Position numbers and translations under genes: made by a program. Below are positions 5,539-16,463 of a stretch of 53,929 bases of DNA, one piece after another. This stretch comes from Caldilineaceae bacterium (GTDB lineage Bacteria; Chloroflexota; Anaerolineae; Caldilineales; Caldilineaceae), in contig JAGRCP010000040.1 of assembly GCA_020433455.1 (NCBI GenBank), positions 1-53,929 of the forward strand. The letters are read 5' to 3'. Numbering within the stretch: the stretch's first letter is position 1; every line of letters begins with the position of its first letter. Under the pieces are notes generated by a model that saw only the letters and a program-made list of their open reading frames with translations, was not told the origin of the DNA and made no database searches.

Positions 5539-6147
5539 TCACGGCCGGATTTCATCAAGGCGCCGATCCAGATCGGCTTGGCTTACGATGGGACCGATGA
5601 CCTGGCTCTGAATCTTGCCGTCCGGGCTGATGAAGAAAGTCTCAGGCACGCCCTTGATGCCGTATGAGCGGGCAGCCTGACTTTGTATATCCGCGCCGTT
5701 CGGGTAGGTAATGTCATATTCGGCCATGTACTTCAGCGCGGCGTGCTCCTGGTCCAGATAATCCAGACCGATGAAAGTAATGCCGTTGTTCTGCTCCCGC
5801 CGCCAGGTCTGCTCCAGCAAATCGGCCTCTGCACGGCACGGATCGCACCAGCTGGCCCAAAAATTGAGCACCACGCCCTGGCCCGCTAAGTCAGCCAAGC
5901 TGATGGCCTCGCCGTCGAAGGTGGTAAATTCGAAATCGGGCGCCATGCCGCTGGCCCGCTGCTGGGAGACATTCTGGCGCTGTAGGCCCAGAACCAAAAA
6001 GGCGACAAAAGCAAGCAGCACACCCACAATAATGAGCCGCCACATGGCCATCCGCCGCTGGTGTGCGGCCTTCTCCGGGGTAAGGACGTCTTCTGCCGGG
6101 GCGTGGGAAACGGCCGGCTGTTCATCGAGTCGGGTCATCTCAGTCAT
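5539..6147 (-). CDS. ccmG: CcmG/DsbE-type membrane-anchored thioredoxin
   Basis: This protein keeps apocytochrome c haem-binding cysteines reduced before haem attachment. It has a cytoplasmic tail, one membrane anchor (about residues 36-54) and an extracytoplasmic thioredoxin fold with the redox motif WASWCDPC (Cys101 and Cys104) and the cis-proline region '[11 protein letters not shown]'. I choose the ATG ending at 6147 (202 residues): it overlaps the ccmH stop codon and has AGGAG ten bases upstream; the longer open frame only reads through ccmH. The overlap implies translational coupling. A general TlpA/ResA role is the alternative, but position between ccmH and ccmF makes CcmG the better call. 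Confidence 0.9.
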
Positions 6148-6628
6148 GGCGGGCCAACTCCTCATCCAGGCGCCGGGCATAGTCGTCATCCGGCACTGGA
6201 CGTTCGCTGGACGCTACTGGAGCCGGGCGGATATCCTGCATCATGCTGCGACCGCGGGTAAGAACAAAGAGGCCGCCCCCCAGGAGCACAGCAACGGGCA
6301 GAATCCATGCCAGCAGGTTAAAGCCGCTCCGGGGCGGTTCGCCCAACACCTGGGGACCGTACTGGGTGACAAAATAACTTTTGATACTCTCCGTATCATC
6401 GCCCGCGGCCAGTTTGATCGCAATTTCGTCCTTCATCTGATCGCAGGCTTTTAGCTCGCAGCCGTCCAGACGCACGCCCGAACAGAGGGGGCACCAAAGC
6501 TCACGCGCCACTTCGTTGACTTGATCGGCCGTGACGGTTGACGCGTCCTGTGCGTAGAGGGGTTGGCCCAGAGCCAGAAAGACAAAGAGCAGCAGGGTAA
6601 GGCGGAGCAGGTGAATTACTCGATTCAT
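6140..6628 (-). CDS. ccmH: Cytochrome c maturation protein CcmH/NrfF
   Basis: A 162-residue secreted and membrane-anchored redox protein that works with CcmG and CcmF to present reduced apocytochrome to the haem lyase. A signal peptide is clear ([21 protein letters not shown]); the redox motif is CPLC; a single C-terminal membrane segment follows ([19 protein letters not shown]). Downstream of CPLC lie two more cysteines in the pattern '[11 protein letters not shown]', which classical CcmH proteins lack. The start is the ATG ending at 6628, directly before the signal peptide. It is the first ccm gene and lies 69 bases after the yqeC-mocA fusion on the same strand. Confidence 0.92.
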
Positions 6629-6697
6629 ATCGTTTGCATCTCGTGAAAATCGAAACAGAGTGACAGATCGAACACAGGCAAACAAGAGTAGCCAAAA

Positions 6698-8176
6698 TTA
6701 TAGCACAACCACATCATCTGGGCAGTCCCAGTCGCGCAGTCGTTCGGCGTCAAGCGTGATGGACGCGACAAGATCGGCATGACGACGCAGCAGCCCGCGC
6801 CCGCCCACGTCGCCGGTCAGCTTGATCAGTTCCGGCCAGTATGCCCGATCAAAGAGCGCTGGCGCGCCCCGCAGTTCTCCATTCGCGCGGGGCGCAGCCA
6901 GCCCGGCCCCGCCCTCCCACAGGCGGATCAGGCCGCGCAGGAGCCATGCCGGCGCAAAGGGTTGATCGACGGGGAGGAAGACGGCGGCGCGTGTTGTTCC
7001 CTCCATACGCGTGAATTCCCACGGAAATTCGCCTGCGGATTCTGTCAGAGGCAGGTCCGGCGAGCTTCCGCTGGGAGATCCGCGCCGGACGATATGGGCC
7101 AGGCCGGCCGCTACGCTGGAAGCCTGTCCGCTGGGCCAGCGGGGATTGTGGACGATGTCCACTCGTTCAGTATGCAGCAAGCCGTAATCCGCCAGCGCAG
7201 CCGTTACTTCCGCCTGATACGCGCCCAAAACCACCGCCACCCAATCGGCGCCGCCCGCCAGCGCAGTCTCCACGGCCCGCACCACGAGCGGGACGCCGGC
7301 CAGCGTAAGCAACTGCTTGGGACGCCCCATGCGTGCGCTCTCCCCCGCGGCCAGAATGACCGCGGCCACCGGCCCGTGTCGGCTGTTGACAGGATAATCG
7401 CCTTCCGTCTGCAGATGGGTCAACATGCTCTCCGCCCCGCTTGCCGTCAAGGCATCAGCCATGAGGCGGCCTACAGCCCGGCGTGGCGACGTATCGGCCT
7501 TGTTGAGGAGAAAAATGCGTCGGGTCCCCTGGACGCGACCTTTATCGCCGCCCGCGGGATGCAGGAGGAGGCGTGCGGCCTGCTCAGGCGTCAAGCGTGC
7601 GCTATCATCGTCAGGCAAATTGAGAAGCCGGCGCATGATTTCAGGTCGATGGAGACGGCCGGCGGCAAGCGGCTGACCAACGCTATCCAGCCCCAGAACG
7701 GGGACCAGCAGCGTGGTTGAAGCGGGGACGACCGGCTCATGTTCGGCGGGCGCTTTGGCCGGCAGCATGTGGCTGCCGTCGGCCTCAACGAGGATAGCGC
7801 CCAAGCCCAGGTCGGCTGCGCACGCGGCCAGGCGATCTACGACATGGGGCGCAACGCCGGCCCGCTTATGCACCGGTCCTTGCTCGATGGTCTCCCGCCC
7901 AATGAGAAGAACCTGGCCATGTGCGTCCAGCGCTCTGCGCAATGCTTCCTCGGGCAACTCGCCGGCCGGGGCGGAAACCACCGCCGGCGCCTGGCGGATC
8001 TGCGTTTCGGCCATGCGCGTCGTGGTCGTGGTGACGACGCGCCGGCCTGCCGCCTGTAACTCAGTGGTCAGGCGGAAGAGCGCGCTGCTCTTGCCGCCCG
8101 CGCCCGTAAACGCGACGACTTCCGGTCGCCCCTCGTCCGGCTGTATACCAAGCGCTTGGGCCAGCAGCATGGCCAT
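6698..8176 (-). CDS. YqeC-MocA fusion: molybdenum/selenium cofactor protein
   Basis: Two domains are joined in 492 residues. Residues 1-250 match the YqeC family found with selenium-dependent molybdenum hydroxylases and carry the nucleotide-binding loop FTGAGGKSSALF. Residues 270-492 are a MobA/MocA-like nucleotidyltransferase (VILAAGESARMGRPKQLL), the type that adds CMP or GMP to molybdopterin. The start lies one base after the npdG stop codon, so the pair is tightly coupled. About residues 360-390 hold a Ser/Pro/Glu-rich stretch ('SPSGSSPDLPLTESAGEF') that looks inserted between the usual 'GL..I' and 'FLPVDQP' motifs. No molybdenum hydroxylase gene is in the window. Confidence 0.88.
   Translation of the reverse strand: MAMLLAQALGIQPDEGRPEVVAFTGAGGKSSALFRLTTELQAAGRRVVTTTTTRMAETQIRQAPAVVSAPAGELPEEALRRALDAHGQVLLIGRETIEQGPVHKRAGVAPHVVDRLAACAADLGLGAILVEADGSHMLPAKAPAEHEPVVPASTTLLVPVLGLDSVGQPLAAGRLHRPEIMRRLLNLPDDDSARLTPEQAARLLLHPAGGDKGRVQGTRRIFLLNKADTSPRRAVGRLMADALTASGAESMLTHLQTEGDYPVNSRHGPVAAVILAAGESARMGRPKQLLTLAGVPLVVRAVETALAGGADWVAVVLGAYQAEVTAALADYGLLHTERVDIVHNPRWPSGQASSVAAGLAHIVRRGSPSGSSPDLPLTESAGEFPWEFTRMEGTTRAAVFLPVDQPFAPAWLLRGLIRLWEGGAGLAAPRANGELRGAPALFDRAYWPELIKLTGDVGGRGLLRRHADLVASITLDAERLRDWDCPDDVVVL
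7020..7085. other. Probable in-frame insertion within the MocA domain
   Basis: The DNA here encodes a roughly 25-30 residue low-similarity segment between two conserved parts of the nucleotidyltransferase domain. It is bounded by the partly self-complementary TCCGGCG and CGCCGGA. It keeps the frame open. I read it as an inserted small element or an expanded loop, judging from family motif spacing only. Confidence 0.35.
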
Positions 8177-8177
8177 G

Positions 8178-8849
8178 CTACGACCGGGGAATACCGGTAA
8201 TGCGGATGCCGCTGCCCTTGACCTTGTTGCGGATGTTGATGCCGATGAGCAGGGCAGTCAGACCTTCGATAACCGAGGCGTTGGTCAGCGGCCCGGCATC
8301 AACGGCAAAGAAGCCCGCAGCCTGAGCAAGCTCCGCCGCGACGGCCTTGGCCTCTTTGTCATCCCCGGCAATAAGGACGTCGCAATTCGGCTCCCACGCC
8401 AAATCAAACAGATGGGTGGCGGAGATGTTCTGGAATGCAGCAACGACGCGCACGTTTTCCCCCAATTGCGCTTGGGCCTCGGCTGCGGCCGATCCCGCTT
8501 CCGGCTGCCAGACGACGGAAACCTTGGGCGGTTTCAACGGTACGCAAACGGTGACGACGACCTTATCCCGGCTTGCGTCGGCAATCTGCGCAATGGTGCC
8601 TTCTTGCGCGCTGTAGGGTACGCTGAGGACGATGATGTCGCCCGCGGCCGCGGCGGGGCCGTTCTCCAGGCCGGTAAGGAGGGCGCTGCCGGAAGGCAGT
8701 TGCCCGGCCAGTTCTTCGCCGCGGGCCGCGGCTTTTTCTGCACTGCGGCTGCCGATAACCACGGGATAACCGGCCGCGGCCCAGCGTACGGCCAGGCCCG
8801 AACCTTCTGCGCCCGTCCCGCCGATAAGTGCAATAGTGGGTTTTGTCAT
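8178..8849 (-). CDS. npdG: NADPH-dependent F420 reductase
   Basis: A 223-residue enzyme that moves hydride between coenzyme F420 and NADP. The N-terminal Rossmann motif is IALIGGTGAEGSGLA, followed by GSRSAEKAA, typical of the F420-NADP oxidoreductase family, with 'DVLIAGDDKEAK' and 'VIEGLTALLIGIN' further on. I choose the ATG ending at 8849, which has GGAG eight bases upstream; the longer frame adds 21 unrelated residues. It lies in the B12 gene string, before yqeC-mocA. It implies that the organism makes or uses F420. Confidence 0.9.
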   Translation of the reverse strand: MTKPTIALIGGTGAEGSGLAVRWAAAGYPVVIGSRSAEKAAARGEELAGQLPSGSALLTGLENGPAAAAGDIIVLSVPYSAQEGTIAQIADASRDKVVVTVCVPLKPPKVSVVWQPEAGSAAAEAQAQLGENVRVVAAFQNISATHLFDLAWEPNCDVLIAGDDKEAKAVAAELAQAAGFFAVDAGPLTNASVIEGLTALLIGINIRNKVKGSGIRITGIPRS

Positions 8850-8891
8850 AGTTGTTGCTCCGAATCTGGGTTGGAACTTCATCTGCTGGGG

Positions 8892-8965
8892 ACCGACGCC
8901 CGGGATCGTCAAACGTCGGTTTGGCGTTGTCGCCGGACTGGAGTCCGGCGCTCCCGGGACAAGGC
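8892..8965. repeat. Intergenic palindromic repeat, GCCGGACT/AGTCCGGC type
   Basis: A perfect 8-bp inverted repeat with a 2-base centre, GCCGGACTGGAGTCCGGC (8932-8949), follows a 7-bp inverted repeat ACCGACG/CGTCGGT. The core 'CTGGAGTCCGGCG' recurs at 49665-49678, so this is a dispersed repeat family. It lies between the adenosyltransferase and npdG genes. Confidence 0.7.
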
Positions 8966-8969
8966 CGTT

Positions 8970-9533
8970 TTACGCGCCGGGCTGCCAGAGAGGCTCAGCC
9001 ACGCCCTGCACGTGATTCTCATAGCGGGCCATGACGAAAAGCGCATCCGAAAGGCGGTTGAGATAGGCGATCACGTGCCGACCGACGGCTTCTTCCCGCG
9101 CCAAGGTAGCCGCCTCGCGCTCGGCCCGGCGACAAACGGTGCGCGCGACGTGAAGTTGGGCCGCGCCCATACAGCCGCCGGGTAAAATAAAATTGTCCAG
9201 CGAACCGACGACAGCTTGCAATTCGTCCATCAGCGCCTCCAGCGCGGCAACGTGGCGCGCCTCGATCTGGGGGATGCTGTACCTGGTTTTGTCTTCTTCG
9301 ATAAAGCAGAGGTCCGAGCCCAAATCAAAGAGCTGATTCTGAATGGCAGACAATTCCATCGTCAACCGCTCGCTCATGCCTGCGGCCAACGCAACGCCGA
9401 TCTGGGAATTGAGTTCATCCACCGCACCGTAGACCTGAACGCGCAGGTGGCCCTTGGCAACCCGCTGGCCGCCGCCCAATGCAGTCGTCCCTGCATCGCC
9501 GGTTTTGGTATAAATTTTGGTTAGTCTCGGCAT
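8970..9533 (-). CDS. PduO-type cob(I)alamin adenosyltransferase
   Basis: A 187-residue enzyme that uses ATP to attach the adenosyl group to cob(I)alamin, giving adenosylcobalamin. The N-terminal ATP-binding motif ([20 protein letters not shown]), the '[10 protein letters not shown]' helix and the '[10 protein letters not shown]' motif of the PduO/MMAB family are all present. The start follows a strong AAAGGAGG. It is downstream of the ECF transporter genes and of the adenosylcobalamin riboswitch, so its product is the ligand that would switch the operon off. Confidence 0.95.
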
Positions 9534-9550
9534 AGGAGCCTCCTTTAAAT

Positions 9551-9656
9551 ACAAAATGAGAAACGAGAAATCAGGAATGAGGAATGCGTGATTTTGCGGT
9601 GCATGCGTTGTCTTGGAACCTGATTAGACCATTTCTTATTTCTCATTTCTGATTCT
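9551..9656. repeat. Inverted pair of GAAATCA-type heptamer arrays after ecfA
   Basis: The left array (9551-9586) reads AAATGAG/AAACGAG/AAATCAG/GAATGAG in 7-base steps; the right array (9631-9656) is the same family inverted. Together they can fold back with a loop of about 45 bases. The right array encodes the last residues (ENQK) and the stop codon of ecfA. A sister pair lies at 11275-11375. Confidence 0.75.
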
Positions 9657-11268
9657 CCGCCCCCAACACATCCTCAACCGTCAGCCAGCCCGTATCAGGA
9701 TAAAGCCGCGCGACCTGGGGCGCAAATAGGGGCGATGCGCCCATCACCTGCGCGGGCGGGCCGTCGGCAATGATCTCGCCCTGGCTCATAATGATAACCC
9801 GGTCGGCCAGTTGGGCAGCGAGTTCCACATCATGGGTGACGACCATGATGGCCAATCCCTCGTCGCGCCAACCGCGCAGGAGCGCCGTCAGCGCATCCTT
9901 GGCCGCGTAGTCCAGACCCCGGGTCGGCTCATCCAACAGCAATACTTCCGGCTTCGTGACCAGAAGCGCGGCCAGCGCCGCCCGCTGACGTTCGCCGATG
10001 CTCAGATCCCGGGGATAAGCGTCGGCCTTACGGGCCAACCCCAGACGCGTCAACAGCGCCATGGGCTCTACCGGCGGCGCGCCGCCCTGCCCGGGATGCA
10101 GGCCGTGATTACGCAGGGTAATATCCAGCTCTTCCCCCACGGTTTCGGCAAAGAGCAGGTTATCGGGATTCTGGGGCAGGTACCCGATACGCCGGCAGAT
10201 TTCGGCAACCGGCTTTTGCGTGATCTCTTCGCCGTTCAGGAGGATATGCCCCCTTGCCGGCCGCGTCAGCCCGGCGATACTCCGAAGCAGGGTCGTCTTG
10301 CCCGCGCCGTTGCGCCCCATGAGGGCCGTCACCTCGCCCCCCCGCAACGTCAGGCTGACGCCCTTGAGGACTGCATTGCGCCCATATCCGCCCTCCACAT
10401 TTTGCACCGTCAACTCCGTCGCACCGAAGCTCCGCTCCTCCACCGCCGTCTCCGCCGTCCCAAGGCTCCGCTCCTCCGCGCGCACAAAGCGCAGCCCTTC
10501 CTTAATCGTCAGCGGCAAGGGCGTCCAGCCTTTCGCTTTTCCCAGGCGAATCAGCGGCGGGCCCAGCGCCGTCTGGGCTAGCACATCCCGGGGATCACCG
10601 CTCAGCACCGCGCCCTGCGCGGGCAGGTAGAGGAGCGTATCCACGAAGGGAAGCACCCGCTCCAGCCGATGTTCAGCCAGGACGATAGTCAGCCCCAGGT
10701 CTGCGTTGAGGCGCACCAGCGCCGTAAGCACGTCTTCCGCCGATTTGGGATCGAGCTGGGAAGTGGGTTCGTCCAGGACTAAAATCGGCGGACGCAGGGC
10801 TAGGGCCGCGGCAATGGCAACCCGCTGCTTCTCGCCGCCGGACAGGTCCGTAAGCGGGCGATCCCGCAGGTGGGCCAGGTCCAGGAGGTCCAGCGTTTCC
10901 TCTACGCGGATGCGCATCTCCTGAGGAGCCATGGCCGCATTTTCCAGGGCAAAGGCAATCTCATCCTCTACCCGGTCCAGAACGAATTGGGCTTCGGGAT
11001 CCTGAAAAACAAAGCCCACGTGCGTGCTCATACCTGCCGGCGAGGCCGCCACGGGATCCAATCCCGCTACGCGCACCTCGCCGGTGATGAGGCCGCCGCT
11101 AAAGTGGGGCGTTAAGCCGTTGAGGCAGCGAAGCAGCGTCGATTTCCCTGCTCCCGACGGACCGACCAACAGGGCGAAATCGCCTGCCGGCACGTCCAGA
11201 TTAACATTGTCCAGCGCGGGCTGTTCGGCCCCAGGGTAAGTAAATGAAAGGTTGGTAAAGTGGATCAT
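9643..11268 (-). CDS. ecfA: ECF transporter ATPase, fused double ABC protein
   Basis: A 541-residue protein with two complete ABC ATPase domains that drive vitamin import through EcfT and the S component. Domain 1 (residues 1-240) has Walker [10 protein letters not shown], signature LSGGEKQR and Walker B ILVLDEPT; domain 2 (about 285-530) has [17 protein letters not shown] and [12 protein letters not shown]. The fused layout resembles YkoD-type ATPases rather than separate EcfA1/EcfA2 genes. It lies downstream of ecfT and upstream of the adenosyltransferase. Its last four codons and stop fall in a heptamer repeat array. Confidence 0.95.
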
Positions 11269-11274
11269 GGACTT

Positions 11275-11375
11275 AAAATCAGAAATCAGAAATGAATAAT
11301 CAGGAATGAGTAATGCGCTTCTGTCAACATAGTTCGGGACGGAGTGACCAATTTCTCATTCCTCATTTCTCATTA
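11275..11375. repeat. Inverted pair of GAAATCA-type heptamer arrays between ecfT and ecfA
   Basis: Left array 11275-11314 and right array 11351-11375 are inverted relatives in 7-base units of the form AAATCAG/AAATGAA/GGAATGAG. The right array encodes the end of EcfT (MRNEE and its stop). The pair could form a long imperfect hairpin in the mRNA. Confidence 0.75.
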
Positions 11376-12414
11376 CGTCAAAAATAAGCGCCGCGGCCGG
11401 CGCAAGCAGACCCCAGGTTGCCAGGCCCAGCCAGAGGTTAAAATCCGGCCACAGAGATTGATAATAAGGATAGTAATAAATCGACTCACGGGAAAGGCCG
11501 GGTACGGGTAAGAAGAAGAGGAGCAGCGTGAGCAACGCCGCCAGCCCAACCAATAAGCCCGTCGGGGTCCATGCGTCCGGCCGGTAGACCGTATGGGGGT
11601 GGCGCCGACCCGTCTCCCGCAGCGCAATCGCCAGCATAACGCCTCCTGCAAGCATGAGCGTTCCGCCCGGCAATGCCTGCTGCCAGACAAGACGCAGCAG
11701 CCAGCCGGCGAGAATCGCGGCCAGGCCGGCCAGAGCAAGCAGGCGCGGATAAAGGGGCGTCTCTTCCTCCGGCGTCCCGGCAAAGCCCCGGGCCATCATG
11801 GCTTCCGCCAGTTGCAGCGCGCGCTCCAGCCCGCCGATGAGGAGAGGCAACGCCAGGGGCAGCCAACTCCTCGTACTGGTCATGGCGTGGCCGCGAATAG
11901 CCTGGGCTTCCCGCACCTGCTCAAAATGGCGGCGGGTAGCAGGTACGTACGTGACGGCAATCGATGCCACCACGGCCGCCGCGTAGTAGGCTCTGGGCGC
12001 CAGGCGAATCAGCGCACGGACGCCCACCACCCGGCTGACGACGGCAAAGGCAACGAAGAGTCCCGCCAGAGCCGCGCCGTTGAGCGCGCCGTAGAGCAGC
12101 GCCTCGCCTGTCACCTTCCCGCCCAACAAAGGAATAGAGGGCGGAAGGGTAAAGAGCGTCAAGCGCCCTACGTGAACCGTCAAGCCGTTAAAAATGGTAG
12201 AAACGAGGATCACAAAGAGAGCAAAGGCGAGCGGCGAAAAAATGGGGGCGCCGGCCGACTCGCGCCAAAAACGCTTAACAATGGCGTAGGTCAGGCCAAC
12301 CCAAAGCAGCGTCAGTCCGAGATAAATGGGATTACGCGTCACGGTGAGGACAGCCACCGCGGCCAAAAGCCAGATCAACCAGGCCAACGGGTGAATGAAG
12401 AGCCTCTCGCTCAC
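11356..12414 (-). CDS. ecfT: ECF transporter T component (EcfT)
   Basis: A 352-residue membrane protein that couples the ATPase to the substrate-binding S component. At least six hydrophobic segments are visible, with the coupling-helix region 'REAQAIRGHAM' (an Ala-Arg-Gly signature) and a later 'LAEAMMARGF', as in CbiQ/EcfT. The annotated frame extends far upstream, but that part is a shadow of the S-component gene. I choose the GTG at 12414, whose GTGA overlaps the upstream stop codon and yields VSERLFIHPLAWLIWLL. Confidence 0.9.
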   Translation of the reverse strand: MSERLFIHPLAWLIWLLAAVAVLTVTRNPIYLGLTLLWVGLTYAIVKRFWRESAGAPIFSPLAFALFVILVSTIFNGLTVHVGRLTLFTLPPSIPLLGGKVTGEALLYGALNGAALAGLFVAFAVVSRVVGVRALIRLAPRAYYAAAVVASIAVTYVPATRRHFEQVREAQAIRGHAMTSTRSWLPLALPLLIGGLERALQLAEAMMARGFAGTPEEETPLYPRLLALAGLAAILAGWLLRLVWQQALPGGTLMLAGGVMLAIALRETGRRHPHTVYRPDAWTPTGLLVGLAALLTLLLFFLPVPGLSRESIYYYPYYQSLWPDFNLWLGLATWGLLAPAAALIFDVMRNEE

Positions 12415-13292
12415 GCGGCCGCCTTGCGGTAAGCGGCAGTTGCCACGGGCCGAGACTCCTCGGTCGGCGTCGGCGCGGGCCTGTAGACAAAGATGAAGCG
12501 TCGGCGGAAGCGATGCAGCACGCGCAGCACCGGCATCCCGGCGACCAGCATCAGCGCAACGTTGCCCCCGAAGCGCATAAGGTCCCAAAGCAGGGAAGTG
12601 GCCAGGTAGAAAGCGCCGAAGCGGCGCAGGGTCATAGCGATACTCATGCCGGGCGACCAGTAAAGACCCGGGCCGCCGCCGTCTGATGCGGTTAAGTAAG
12701 GCCAGAACCAAATATTCATGACCGCGCCGTAAAGTAAGCCCCATATGCCCGCAAAAAGAGCCAGCAGCGCCACTTCCGTCCACTTGCCCTCACCTCCCAG
12801 AAGCCGCACCAGCGGCCGACAGAGGACAGCGCTCATGCCCATCCAGCCGGCAGTAAACATCTGGTAAGGCAGCCAAGGCCCGGCACTGCCGGTAATGATC
12901 CCCGAGACAAAGAGCGTCAACGCGCCCATCAAAAAGCCCATGCGCCCGCCGAAGACGTAGCCGGTGAGGACAATGAGAAGAAAGATGGGGCTGAAGCCGC
13001 CGGGGCCGGGAATCGCAACCTCGGCAAAGCGCAGCACGCTGTTGATGGCCACCAGCACGCCCAACAGCGCAACAACCTTGGCATTGGCGGCGACATCCTG
13101 CACTTCCAGCAGGAGAACGGCAAAAGCGCAGCCCGCCAGCAGCGTCAGCACCAGCGGCGCATCCCCTGCATGGGCCAGACCGACATTGTTTTGGGCGGCT
13201 ACAGCCGGCAGCCAAAAGGGGTAGAGAAACGCGGCCACGCCCATGAGGCTGGTCATGACGTAAATAGACGCGCTGAGCAGGCGACGGGTCAT
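12411..13292 (-). CDS. ECF transporter substrate-binding (S) component, probably for cobalamin
   Basis: A 293-residue polytopic membrane protein with about seven hydrophobic segments. The 'GPGGFSPIFLLIVLTGYVFGGRMGFLMGAL' region (quoted in parts: GPGGFSPIF, GYVFGGRMGFLMG) has the look of ECF S components. The gene overlaps its upstream and downstream neighbours by four bases, so stoichiometric expression with EcfT is likely. Substrate assignment rests on context: an adenosylcobalamin riboswitch heads the operon and a cobalamin adenosyltransferase ends the transport block. The binding residues cannot be read from sequence alone. Confidence 0.82.
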   Translation of the reverse strand: MTRRLLSASIYVMTSLMGVAAFLYPFWLPAVAAQNNVGLAHAGDAPLVLTLLAGCAFAVLLLEVQDVAANAKVVALLGVLVAINSVLRFAEVAIPGPGGFSPIFLLIVLTGYVFGGRMGFLMGALTLFVSGIITGSAGPWLPYQMFTAGWMGMSAVLCRPLVRLLGGEGKWTEVALLALFAGIWGLLYGAVMNIWFWPYLTASDGGGPGLYWSPGMSIAMTLRRFGAFYLATSLLWDLMRFGGNVALMLVAGMPVLRVLHRFRRRFIFVYRPAPTPTEESRPVATAAYRKAAA

Positions 13293-14719
13293 GTATCGCC
13301 GTCCTTGCGGCTTTGCAGGTAGAGGAAGGCCGCTGCACCCAACAGCAAGGGCACGCTCAGGATAATGAGCAGACCGGGATAGATGCGCCGAACCTGACCG
13401 ACGGGCGCGGCCCCGATTTCGGCTGTGGGAACGCCTCCGTTCGGGATGACGGTATTGTCCCCGTTCATGTCGTTCCCGTCCATCGCGCCGTCGCCCGGCG
13501 GCAGGACGACCGGCTCGTCGGTTGATGCGGTGGGCAGCAGGACGACGGGCGTGTCTGCTTCCGGGGCCGTCGGGCTGGGGAGCGCTTCAGTGGCGGACGC
13601 GGCGTCGTCCGCGGGCGTGGCCGTCGGCGCGGGAGCGGGCGGCTCAGCGGACGTCGGGAGCGGGGTCGGCGTATTGACGATGATGACGGCAGGCGAGGTG
13701 TTCGTCGCTGCAGGGAGAGGCGTATTAACGACGATAATCGTCGGCGTATTGACCACGCCGCTTGCGCCGGGATCGTCCAGTTCGGGCGGCATTGTGGGCG
13801 AAACCATCGTTTCCACGGGGACCGGCGTGGTCGGAACCGGCCCTGGCTCTACGTTGACGGTTACGTTTACCCGATCTTCGCCCGCGGCATTGCGTGCAAC
13901 GAGCTGATAGGTCGTCGTCTGGTTCGGAGCCAGCGTGCTGCTGCCGCTGGCGGCCACGGCTTGCTCATTACCGTTCGTAATAAGGAGAACCGTCGTCGCG
14001 CCCTGGGTTTCCCAGATCAGGGTAACCTGCTCACCGGCTCGGATCGATTCCCGATCCGGGGCCAGATAGGTAATGATTGGCGGTCCCTGGGGCGTCGGCG
14101 TTACGGTGGGTGCGGTCGTAACCGCGGCGGCTGTGGTTGCGCTGGGCGTGGACGATGCAGTCGGTTGCGCAGAAGCGGTTGCATGAGCCGCCGCCGTCTC
14201 GGTCGCCACCTGCTCGGGCTCGCAGATTTCGGCGTAGGTATAGACGGGCGGCGCATTTTCGGCATTGAGGTTGAGCGTGCCCACGCTCCACGACCAGCCC
14301 TCGACTGAGCCGGGAATCGCCTGACGATTGCTCGCACCAAGTTGGGAATACCGCCACTCGCCATCTTCCCACAACCAGTATGACCAATATTTACAGGGCG
14401 AACTCTCACATCCGCAGAAACAGTTCTGCTGGGGATAAGAGCAGCCTTCATCATCGATCCCGCAGACAGCCGACCCGATTGCCTGGGCCTCAATACTCGT
14501 TTCAAGACCCGAATTAACCAATACATCAAGGCCGGTTGCGCCGTTGTCGATCTCCACGCAGCGGGTGACCGCGCTGCCGTCATCATAACGAATGACCAGC
14601 CCCACCCGACCGCTTTCCTGCCCATCCGCGGGCGCGGCCAACAAGGCCAGCAGCAGCAGCGCGCCGGCGGCCAGTAAAACACGAGTATTCTGCACGGATT
14701 GGGCAAGTAAGCGAGTCAT
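13289..14719 (-). CDS. Membrane-anchored DUF4430 (transcobalamin beta-domain-like) protein
   Basis: A 476-residue exported protein. After a signal peptide (LLAAGALLLLALLAAPADG), residues 38-150 form a DUF4430 domain, the fold of the C-terminal domain of animal transcobalamin. It carries a Cys-rich block (CGIDDEGC...NCFCGC) and an aromatic block (YWSYWLWEDGEW...EGWSW). An Ig-like domain follows (about 220-295), then a long Thr/Pro/Val stalk and a single C-terminal membrane helix with a basic tail. This reads as a cell-surface stalked ligand-binding protein. It overlaps the S component gene by ATGA, so it is part of the transporter. B12 binding is inferred. Confidence 0.82.
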   Translation of the reverse strand: MTRLLAQSVQNTRVLLAAGALLLLALLAAPADGQESGRVGLVIRYDDGSAVTRCVEIDNGATGLDVLVNSGLETSIEAQAIGSAVCGIDDEGCSYPQQNCFCGCESSPCKYWSYWLWEDGEWRYSQLGASNRQAIPGSVEGWSWSVGTLNLNAENAPPVYTYAEICEPEQVATETAAAHATASAQPTASSTPSATTAAAVTTAPTVTPTPQGPPIITYLAPDRESIRAGEQVTLIWETQGATTVLLITNGNEQAVAASGSSTLAPNQTTTYQLVARNAAGEDRVNVTVNVEPGPVPTTPVPVETMVSPTMPPELDDPGASGVVNTPTIIVVNTPLPAATNTSPAVIIVNTPTPLPTSAEPPAPAPTATPADDAASATEALPSPTAPEADTPVVLLPTASTDEPVVLPPGDGAMDGNDMNGDNTVIPNGGVPTAEIGAAPVGQVRRIYPGLLIILSVPLLLGAAAFLYLQSRKDGDT

Positions 14720-14747
14720 GGAAGATCAGAAGCGTGATGCATAATTT

Positions 14748-14789
14748 GTGGAGCGGGATTCGAGGGCATTACCTCGGATCCCGCTCCAC
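14748..14789 (-). promoter_or_regulatory. 18-bp intercistronic hairpin
   Basis: GTGGAGCGGGAT pairs perfectly with ATCCCGCTCCAC, continues through one T-G pair and CGAGG/CCTCG, and closes on a 6-base loop. It lies between the stop of the transcobalamin-like gene and the start of the membrane DUF4430 gene. It is not followed by a T-run on the minus strand, so it is more likely an mRNA-stabilising or partial attenuation hairpin than a full terminator. Confidence 0.75.
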
Positions 14790-14798
14790 GTTCATTTC

Positions 14799-16166
14799 CT
14801 ATTGGGCGGCGCTAATCATCGGCAGGAAAATTTCACTGCACGCGGTCACATTGTCGGTAACGAAAGACGTGCGCAGGAGCGCGGGCACGGCTTGATGGGT
14901 TGCCAGGGGATTAGCGCCCTGGCCCGTCATCCAGGCAAAGCTGCCGTCGGCCAACTGGAGCGAGGCAAGCGCGTCAAAGGGCGTATTACCGTTGACGCTC
15001 CAGGCGGCGCTTGTGGGATCCTGTCCCGCAGCCAGGATTGCCTGAATCACGTAGGCGGTGGAGTTGGCGTCGGTCTCCGCGTCCAGATCGTTGCCGAAGC
15101 CGCCGTCCTCATTTTGCGCGCTGCGCAGGTAGATCAGGCCGTCGGGCGAACAGACGCCGGCCGCGCGCAGGGCCTGGACGGCCAACGCGGTGCTATTGGT
15201 ATCACCGAACGCTTCACCCTCAGCGCTGGGCGGCAGATACCCCCACGAGCCGTCCGGATTGGCCTGGTCAACCAGAGTTTGGACCATTTCCACGGGCAGC
15301 GGTTCATCCGCTATCCCGGCCATGGCCAACATGCCGAAAGCCTGATCCCAGTTGGTAGGACCAAACGCGCCACTCATATCATCGTAATTGGCTTTCACGG
15401 CGGCAACGATGTCCTCCCCGGCAAAAGCCTGGGGATCGGCCCCCGCGCTGACCGCGGCCAGATAAAGCTTGCCCGCGGCCGCGGGTGAGGCAGCCGCGTA
15501 GCGCGCGGCATTGGTTGGGTGCTCATCGCCGTCAATATCGTCCTGAGACCAGTAATCGAGAAGCGAGAAGCCGTCGGGCGGGGCCTGCCAGGCAGAGGCT
15601 GCTTCATGATTGGCGCCGAGGGCCAGCATGACGTCGGCCGTCGAGCCGAGGCTGCCAAAGCCGCCGGTCGGCTGCTGGGTAGAGGCAATCTGGTCGAGCG
15701 CGAGTTCGGCGCTCAGCGCTTCCGGCGCAGGCGCAACCGCGGCGCCGAACTCGCCCCAGCGCCAGCCTTCAATCGCGCCGGTTTGGCTGATAACGGAAGA
15801 GGCCGCGCCGGTCATGTACCCCTGCCACGCGCCGTCTCCCCAATAATTATAGCCCCAATAGGAACTGCTGCAGAAGCAGTCTTCAGCGGGGCAGCCTACG
15901 CCGTCAATGCTGCACACCAGCGTGCCGTAATCGGATGTCGCCGTAATCACATCCAGGCCGCTCATTTCCAACGCACGCAGGCCGGAGATGGAATCCGTAA
16001 AGGTGATGCTGCGAATGGCCACATTCTGATCGCCGAACTGAACGATGACGTCCGCGTCCTTTTCGTCCTGAGCCAATGCGCCGGGCGCGCCCATAGCCAG
16101 GAAGAGCGCGGCCAGCAGCCATGCGCCTATGCCAATTCCGACCCAACGTGTCAATTGTTTGGACAT
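14799..16166 (-). CDS. Secreted transcobalamin-like protein: DUF4430 plus alpha/alpha-barrel repeats
   Basis: A 455-residue secreted protein with a signal peptide ending at ALAQ (residue 33). Residues 38-150 are a DUF4430 domain with the Cys block CSIDGVGCPAEDCFCSS and aromatic block YWGYNYWGDGAW...EGWRW shared with the next gene. Residues 160-435 are repeats of the prenyltransferase/squalene-cyclase type (GGFGSLGSTAD, GAFGPTNWDQA, PDGSWGY, EDGGFGN, ADGSFAW), as in the alpha6/alpha6 barrel of transcobalamin and intrinsic factor. The two domains are in the opposite order from the animal proteins. It is the first gene after the cobalamin riboswitch and ends in the Chloroflexota-type tail IFLPMI. 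GGAAGG precedes the ATG. Confidence 0.85.
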   Translation of the reverse strand: MSKQLTRWVGIGIGAWLLAALFLAMGAPGALAQDEKDADVIVQFGDQNVAIRSITFTDSISGLRALEMSGLDVITATSDYGTLVCSIDGVGCPAEDCFCSSSYWGYNYWGDGAWQGYMTGAASSVISQTGAIEGWRWGEFGAAVAPAPEALSAELALDQIASTQQPTGGFGSLGSTADVMLALGANHEAASAWQAPPDGFSLLDYWSQDDIDGDEHPTNAARYAAASPAAAGKLYLAAVSAGADPQAFAGEDIVAAVKANYDDMSGAFGPTNWDQAFGMLAMAGIADEPLPVEMVQTLVDQANPDGSWGYLPPSAEGEAFGDTNSTALAVQALRAAGVCSPDGLIYLRSAQNEDGGFGNDLDAETDANSTAYVIQAILAAGQDPTSAAWSVNGNTPFDALASLQLADGSFAWMTGQGANPLATHQAVPALLRTSFVTDNVTACSEIFLPMISAAQ

Positions 16167-16251: not shown

Positions 16252-16438
16252 TATGTCCTGAGAAGGGCAATACCACATCCTGACCGCGAGGTTGTGGCAT
16301 CTTTCCGGCAGGCGGGCGACCTGGCTTCCTGATTCAGCGACAAGCTGCTGAACAGGTTACAGTTGCGGGACAGCGCCGGACTTTCACCGGCTTCGCCTTT
16401 GCCGTCTGCGCCATCCGGGGCGACAGACACCTGCAAGA
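16252..16438 (-). ncRNA. Adenosylcobalamin riboswitch
   Basis: The minus strand holds the conserved core: GCCGGTGAAAGTCCGGCGC, then the B12-box sequence TGTCCCGCAACTGT (16359-16391 together), followed by 'AATCAGGAAGCCAGGTCGCCCGCCTGCC' (quoted in parts: AATCAGGAAGCCAGG, TCGCCCGCCTGCC). High cellular adenosylcobalamin should fold the aptamer and favour the downstream terminator at 16218-16246. The operon behind it contains the putative B12 import and adenosylation genes, which matches the ligand. Confidence 0.96.
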
Positions 16439-16463
16439 ATGATTTGATTGTCTAACGGAAGTC

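Follow-up and report, generated by a model that had tools for sequence, protein, structure and literature searches.

A putative transcobalamin-type corrinoid-capture module ahead of an ECF-type importer in a Caldilineaceae bacterium

From our analysis of a 53,929-nucleotide stretch of DNA of a Caldilineaceae bacterium (Chloroflexota; assembly GCA_020433455.1, contig JAGRCP010000040.1, positions 1 to 53,929; hereafter the window), two neighbouring genes, P1 and P2, very probably encode an extracytoplasmic corrinoid-capture module, a vitamin B12 clamp of the transcobalamin type, for an energy-coupling factor (ECF) importer of B12. The computational evidence supporting it comprises the folds of both domains, the operon, a cobalamin riboswitch, recurrence across genomes, the pairwise co-occurrence of cysteines, and a host without CbiD and CobS; the binding of a corrinoid by P1 and P2 is what we infer from fold and context. 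The two proteins and their parts, in amino acids (aa) and window positions, are as follows.

14799..16166, minus strand: P1, exported protein of 455 aa, predicted transcobalamin-type beta-domain followed by an alpha/alpha barrel
15753..16061, minus strand: P1 beta-domain, aa 36-138, with Cys 85/92/97/99 and the Trp block; local predicted local distance difference test score (pLDDT) mostly >90
14847..15731, minus strand: P1 alpha/alpha toroid, aa 146-440, from structural alignment and the NCBIfam model SCO2321_fam (7.8e-26, below cut-off)
13289..14719, minus strand: P2, exported protein of 476 aa, with beta-domain, immunoglobulin (Ig)-like stretch, Thr/Pro-rich stalk and C-terminal membrane helix
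14276..14617, minus strand: P2 beta-domain, aa 35-148, with Cys 54/86/93/100/102/104/109; the partner Cys166 lies just outside
13844..14083, minus strand: P2 Ig-like stretch, aa about 213-292, judged by eye from the sequence, without a Pfam match
13316..13381, minus strand: P2 putative C-terminal membrane helix, aa 447-468, from the sequence, followed by a charged tail

Both proteins start with a signal-like hydrophobic helix at the N-terminus. The original prediction that these adjacent, co-directional and exported neighbours share four sub-motifs was borne out by a literal search, which found C-x-ID-xx-GC (aa 85 in P1, aa 86 in P2), CFC (aa 97 and 100), YW-x-Y-xx-W-x-DG-x-W (aa 103 and 111) and EGW-x-W (aa 133 and 140) once in each protein; the near-equal spacing claimed for them holds overall but fails in the gap from CFC to YW, which is 3 residues in P1 and 8 in P2. 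With P1 as query against the whole host genome, the sole matches were P1 itself and the P2 domain (35% identity, E 2.3e-15), a likeness far beyond chance. The exact letters of the motif are a local trait, the literal YW block occurring in just 3 and literal EGWxW in 9 of 72 non-redundant relatives, whereas the underlying positions (two Trp, four Cys, and G-x-V-x-G-W-x-W) are widely conserved, being kept in about 82-99% of these relatives. The pair had also been read as a domain duplication in which one copy became fused to a barrel and the other became stalked on the membrane; the shared domain and the corrinoid setting stand, with the duplication being old and not local. In a quick tree, of which few branches are well supported, P1-type domains from this and other Chloroflexota group together (support 90), apart from P2, and a recent local duplication was rejected on this ground.

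We then compared the folds using AlphaFold2 models of the whole P1 (pLDDT 89.9, predicted template modelling score (pTM) 0.85) and of the P2 domain (pLDDT 95.2, pTM 0.88). When the P2-domain model was searched against the PDB with Foldseek, the top 18 hits were all transcobalamin, haptocorrin, intrinsic factor or the R. gnavus protein 3u7z. With VIA-align 2, the P2 domain aligned to haptocorrin (4kki) with Z 13.6 over 97 residues at 2.1 A, followed by transcobalamin (13.0), 3u7z (12.9) and intrinsic factor (12.6; range over superfamily members 12.1-13.6), and the best unrelated PDB entry reached only Z 6.4. The order of elements in the model, bb-a-bb-bb with an extra hairpin, is that of CATH 2.170.130.30, a cobalamin-binding superfamily in which the added hairpin gives the cobalamin-coordinating surface (PMC13385337). 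On this model, the P2 domain is predicted to have the fold of the transcobalamin/intrinsic factor beta-domain superfamily. Fold comparison was needed because a search of PDB sequences with the domain profile gave chance matches only (e.g., collagen); the barrel profile found cyclases and prenyltransferases in the PDB, with transcobalamin and intrinsic factor absent to E 0.1, and Pfam Cobalamin_bind matched the P1 barrel at 0.0038, under its cut-off. The P1 barrel aligns to intrinsic factor (2pmv) with Z 19.6 over 230 residues. Since the beta-domain fold is shared and the barrel corresponds to the alpha-domain of the carriers, the models make P1 a predicted bacterial counterpart of transcobalamin with its two domains swapped (beta then alpha).

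Next to the gene pair, we found the parts of an ECF importer in the following arrangement.

16294..16449, minus strand: cobalamin riboswitch RF00174, 60.6 bits vs a gathering threshold of 31.5, 127 nucleotides upstream of P1
12411..13292, minus strand: ECF S component, the substrate-specific membrane subunit (PF12822, 4.2e-10); the gene start overlaps the P2 stop
11356..12783, minus strand: CbiQ-like ECF T component (PF02361, 8.5e-8); the listed start of this open reading frame (ORF) is probably too far upstream
9643..11268, minus strand: fused ECF A1-A2 ATPases (TIGR04520, 3.2e-105), with two ABC_tran stretches
8970..9554, minus strand: PduO-type cob(I)alamin adenosyltransferase (PF01923, 1.5e-59; TIGR00636 above cut-off)

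The operon thus reads cobalamin riboswitch, P1, P2, ECF S, T, A1-A2 and adenosyltransferase, and the S component, the T component and two ATPase domains of an ECF importer occur together. An NpdG-type NADPH-dependent F420 reductase (window 8178-8912, minus strand) comes next after the adenosyltransferase in the same direction. The riboswitch, the adenosyltransferase and the lack of CbiD and CobS in the host lend support to B12 as the putative substrate of the importer. In the host genome, which is 99% complete, we found no CobS and no CbiD, nine B12-binding-domain matches over cut-off and two cobalamin riboswitches. As CbiD and CobS are absent but B12-binding domains are many, the host uses B12, is probably unable to make it and so probably imports it, an argument built on CbiD and CobS. 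The second riboswitch (locus L135, G000:C38:8000-22000, positions 5683-5814) lies directly 5' of a gene (5841-7439, plus strand) for a reductive dehalogenase with a twin-arginine translocation (TAT) signal (TIGR02486, 179 bits, above cut-off), one of a family of corrinoid enzymes, and a flavin mononucleotide (FMN)-binding/4Fe-4S membrane protein is encoded downstream of it (9650-10870). Elsewhere in the host (L136:1042-5187, G000:C58), a FecCD permease is clustered with a periplasmic binding protein, a beta-propeller protein and one more ORF, a possible second importer, of corrinoids or siderophores.

The arrangement recurs across genomes. With the SCO2322 model, the domain was found in 36 of 301 Chloroflexota genomes; of the 36 loci counted (one stop-containing match was set aside), 29 carry a riboswitch, 31 a co-directional ECF gene and 30 a barrel that is either fused to the domain or encoded next to it. 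When 84,980 named genomes were scanned, 39 loci were recovered. Most are from Chloroflexota and Thermomicrobiota, two from Actinomycetota and two from Polyangium; by a scripted criterion the barrel is a neighbour or fusion partner in 35 of them, and 28 have an ECF gene. The profile used was built from four close sequences, which biases these loci toward carriers of CxYPAExC and GDVxGWxW. Contig ends truncate several of the loci, so the locus counts are minima. The barrel and the beta-domain are separate genes in most loci. Fusions in the order of P1 occur at L078, L080, L087, L085/L044 and L092, with a riboswitch heading the operons at L078, L080 and L087, and the barrel precedes the beta-domain, as it does in the animal carriers, at L050, L056 and L116, the last of these with a true DUF4430 domain. 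A hydrophobic C-terminal segment ends 61 of the 79 relatives above the P2-domain cut-off, which makes a membrane tether the rule. The two Polyangium copies are at L090:8842-9390 and L095:8818-9387, the latter adjoining a ferric-reductase-like oxidoreductase.

Under the proposed mechanism, scarcity of B12 would lead the riboswitch to permit expression of the operon, and B12 would be clamped at the outer face between barrel and beta-domain in the manner of transcobalamin. The membrane-tethered P2 would keep or receive B12 beside ECF S, which would carry it inside, where the adenosyltransferase of the operon would make the coenzyme. In the lineage of the window the P1 barrel has a beta-domain of its own and the tethered P2 is kept alongside, perhaps serving as a dock or acceptor; a hand-over in the order P1, P2, S is speculative. 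Separately expressed alpha- and beta-domains of transcobalamin (TC-alpha and TC-beta) assemble only upon cobalamin, and TC-beta alone binds cobalamin (PMC5599065); by analogy, a gene pair for a barrel and a tethered beta-domain would fit what a ligand-closed clamp requires.

Several observations weigh against B12 capture by P1 and P2. The ECF S component matches just the broad ECF_trnsprt family, and ECF-CbrT works without a soluble binder (PMC5997447). The P1 barrel is closer to squalene-hopene cyclase (Z 23.7) than to intrinsic factor, so the barrel fold alone is not diagnostic of B12. In L092, L093, L096 and L085 no riboswitch scored at threshold, and in the two Polyangium loci the domain stands alone, with no barrel, ECF gene or riboswitch beside it. 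In haptocorrin the corrin contacts are R357, W359 and Y362, on a hairpin other than the Trp block (PMC4350170); the bulky W359 and Y362 are unconserved in P1 and P2, a hand alignment placing Ile (P2) or Tyr (P1) at W359 and Ala or Leu at Y362, and the aligned hairpin is mostly Gly/Ala/Ile/Leu, with Tyr in P1. These contact residues vary among the animal carriers too (PMC4350170), and hence they do not define the superfamily.

Among the alternatives, the module could capture another corrinoid or a precursor (e.g., cobinamide, pseudo-B12 or norcobamides) and the ECF importer could be a general corrinoid salvager, which we consider possible but unlikely. In its favour, haptocorrin, which aligned best in structure, also accepts corrinoid analogues, cobinamide is a ligand of TC-beta (PMC5599065), and the host has a riboswitch-linked reductive dehalogenase, which belongs to a class of corrinoid enzymes. 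On the other hand, a host without CobS could not finish cobinamide by the known route, although complete cobamides would be possible substrates.

It is rather doubtful that the conserved Trp/Tyr block is itself the binding site by stacking directly on the corrin ring, as had been suggested along with other roles for the Trp and Cys residues. In P1 numbering, W104 and W114 are 99% conserved among the 72 sequences, the Trp of G-W-x-W is conserved in about 90%, and W114 is a trait of the P1/P2 branch because it aligns to a gap in DUF4430. Yet in the profile alignment W104 (of YW) and the GW of EGWxW fall on positions conserved in DUF4430 at large, and YW is present at the same place in haptocorrin, which indicates that the block is mostly conserved scaffold; moreover, the known contact hairpin of haptocorrin is situated elsewhere. 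The original prediction had named the presence of the motif throughout DUF4430 as a finding that would speak against its reading: this is what we see for the W of YW and the GW of EGWxW, and not for W114 and the Cys loop, which sit in stretches without a counterpart in DUF4430.

For the clustered cysteines, the original prediction left disulfides and metal coordination as alternatives, and the co-occurrence data favour the former. We scored the cysteines, in P2 numbering, across the 72 sequences (<85% identity) as both present, first only, second only or neither, which gave 62/0/0/10 for C93-C102, 28/0/0/44 for C104-C109, 68/1/0/3 for C86-C100 and 45/5/0/22 for C54-C166, with truncated sequences possibly among the five; P1 retains just the two central pairs. 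On the quick tree, C93-C102 and C104-C109 change 7 and 12 times with both members together at every pairing; the changes are all in the same direction, but only one or two per pair fall on well-supported branches and a sign test is underpowered. As the two members of each of the four pairs have been gained and lost together, the cysteines are probably four separate disulfides that brace an exported beta-domain. A metal site, or one cysteine as axial ligand of cobalt, is highly improbable: four cysteines do lie close together, and the B12 transporter BtuM has a Cys ligand of cobalt (PMC6072759), but the cysteines of P1/P2-type domains are kept or lost pairwise and not as a set of four, C86-C100 remaining in six sequences without C93-C102 and C104-C109 toggling independently, and L050 and L056 have lost the whole cluster yet keep the fused barrel, the riboswitch and the ECF operon. 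Equally remote is the idea that P1 and P2 are surface proteins with another job (e.g., wall attachment or polysaccharide binding) that share only the regulation of the importer, for although many enzymes share the barrel fold, the P2 stalk is wall-protein-like and Polyangium has its copies away from B12 loci, the beta-domain folds as in the B12 carriers with a large Z gap to others, and most loci link the barrel-plus-beta pair to a riboswitch and ECF genes.

The name DUF4430, originally given to the shared domain, survives in part: Pfam membership falls, and remote kinship stands by profile-profile comparison and fold. Pfam DUF4430 (PF14478) had no match at E<=1 to P1 or P2, short of the gathering cut-off, and none anywhere in the host genome. 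For comparison we used true DUF4430 proteins of Chloroflexota, found in 6 of 400 genomes; hhalign of the P1/P2-type domain against DUF4430 profiles gave probabilities of 61.8-90.5 (E 7.7e-5 to 1.4e-6) vs at most 2.1 in 40 column shuffles, and the DUF4430 profile against the PDB gave haptocorrin at E 0.24 and TC-beta at E 1.1, too weak alone. Judged by these profiles, the domain is a distant relative of DUF4430 and a non-member by Pfam's own criterion. The NCBIfam families nearest to P1 and P2 are SCO2321_fam for the P1 barrel (90.9 of 300 bits) and SCO2322_fam for the P2 domain (5.9e-8, 33.2 of 85 bits), both under their curated cut-offs, and their names state no function. In small-genome Chloroflexota, true Pfam DUF4430 proteins adjoin ECF T/A/S genes (L113:4122-5192 and L115:6169-7206), and another is fused behind a barrel, arranged like animal transcobalamin (L116:5157-7112); no cobalamin riboswitch was found at threshold in these three loci.

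We also noticed variants of the parts in other genomes. At L085:9482-13462, L044:8434-12414 and L092:10215-14450, one ORF of ~1330-1410 aa matches all of ECF S, T and A, and the whole importer appears to be one polypeptide there. Extra short beta-domain proteins (L036:8526-9125, L074:1940-2506, L075:4279-4827 and L077:8038-8595) have an apparent PEP-CTERM sorting tail (e.g., EIPEPATLFLFGSGLLGAAAYFRSRMAA). The C-terminus of P1, IFLPMI, resembles the YLPLV/YVPLV-like tails of beta-domain proteins at L047, L066 and L060.

In the open-licence literature, DUF4430 is mentioned by six papers, and we found no bacterial function for it, no naming of SCO2322 and no description of a P1/P2-type system. 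If P1 and P2 do capture B12, a DUF4430-type domain would gain a function, the scavenging of B12 by these B12-dependent bacteria would be explained, and a capture stage would be added to a class of transporters, ECF, that has been studied without one. A further-reaching proposal, which we hold tentatively and with more doubt than belief, is that a split, ligand-assembled transcobalamin, with a separate barrel and a membrane-tethered beta-domain closing on B12, is the obligate capture stage of an ECF class in Chloroflexota and relatives, the first binder-dependent ECF type, and that the animal carriers share its ancestry.

Among known systems, ECF-CbrT of L. delbrueckii is likewise an ECF importer, encoded together with pduO among clustered B12 genes (PMC5997447), but CbrT functions without any extracytoplasmic binder, whereas two binder genes lead the P1/P2 operon. 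BtuH (DUF4465) and BtuG of Bacteroides are extracytoplasmic B12 binders in B12 loci, as proposed for P1 and P2, but belong to other families and to an outer-membrane, TonB-dependent uptake. Eubacterium siraeum has been reported to carry a btuH homologue close to an ECF-like transporter of cobamides (PMC8941943), and an accessory ECF binder therefore has a precedent, from a different family. Closer in structure, DUF4430 and R. gnavus 3u7z share the fold of P1/P2 with a profile kinship that is detectable, and differ in that P1/P2 carry an added Cys-rich insertion and an extra Trp-bearing stretch and have no PF14478 match; in Streptomyces, SCO2321_fam resembles the P1 barrel and SCO2322_fam the beta-domain, with both similarities below cut-off. 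The animal B12 carriers transcobalamin, haptocorrin and intrinsic factor are textbook proteins. They have the same beta-domain fold (Z 12-13.6) with an alpha/alpha barrel as the other half, and P1 and P2 likely form the same two-sided cobalamin clamp. Unlike in the animal carriers, the two halves are mostly separate genes, one beta-domain is stalked on the membrane, and the partner is an ECF importer and not an endocytic receptor; unlike in haptocorrin, the corrin-contact residues are not kept. The order of the domains is beta-alpha in P1 and alpha-beta in the animal carriers, and L050, L056 and L116 also have alpha then beta. Separate, beta-alpha and alpha-beta arrangements within one phylum hint at how a two-domain carrier was assembled.

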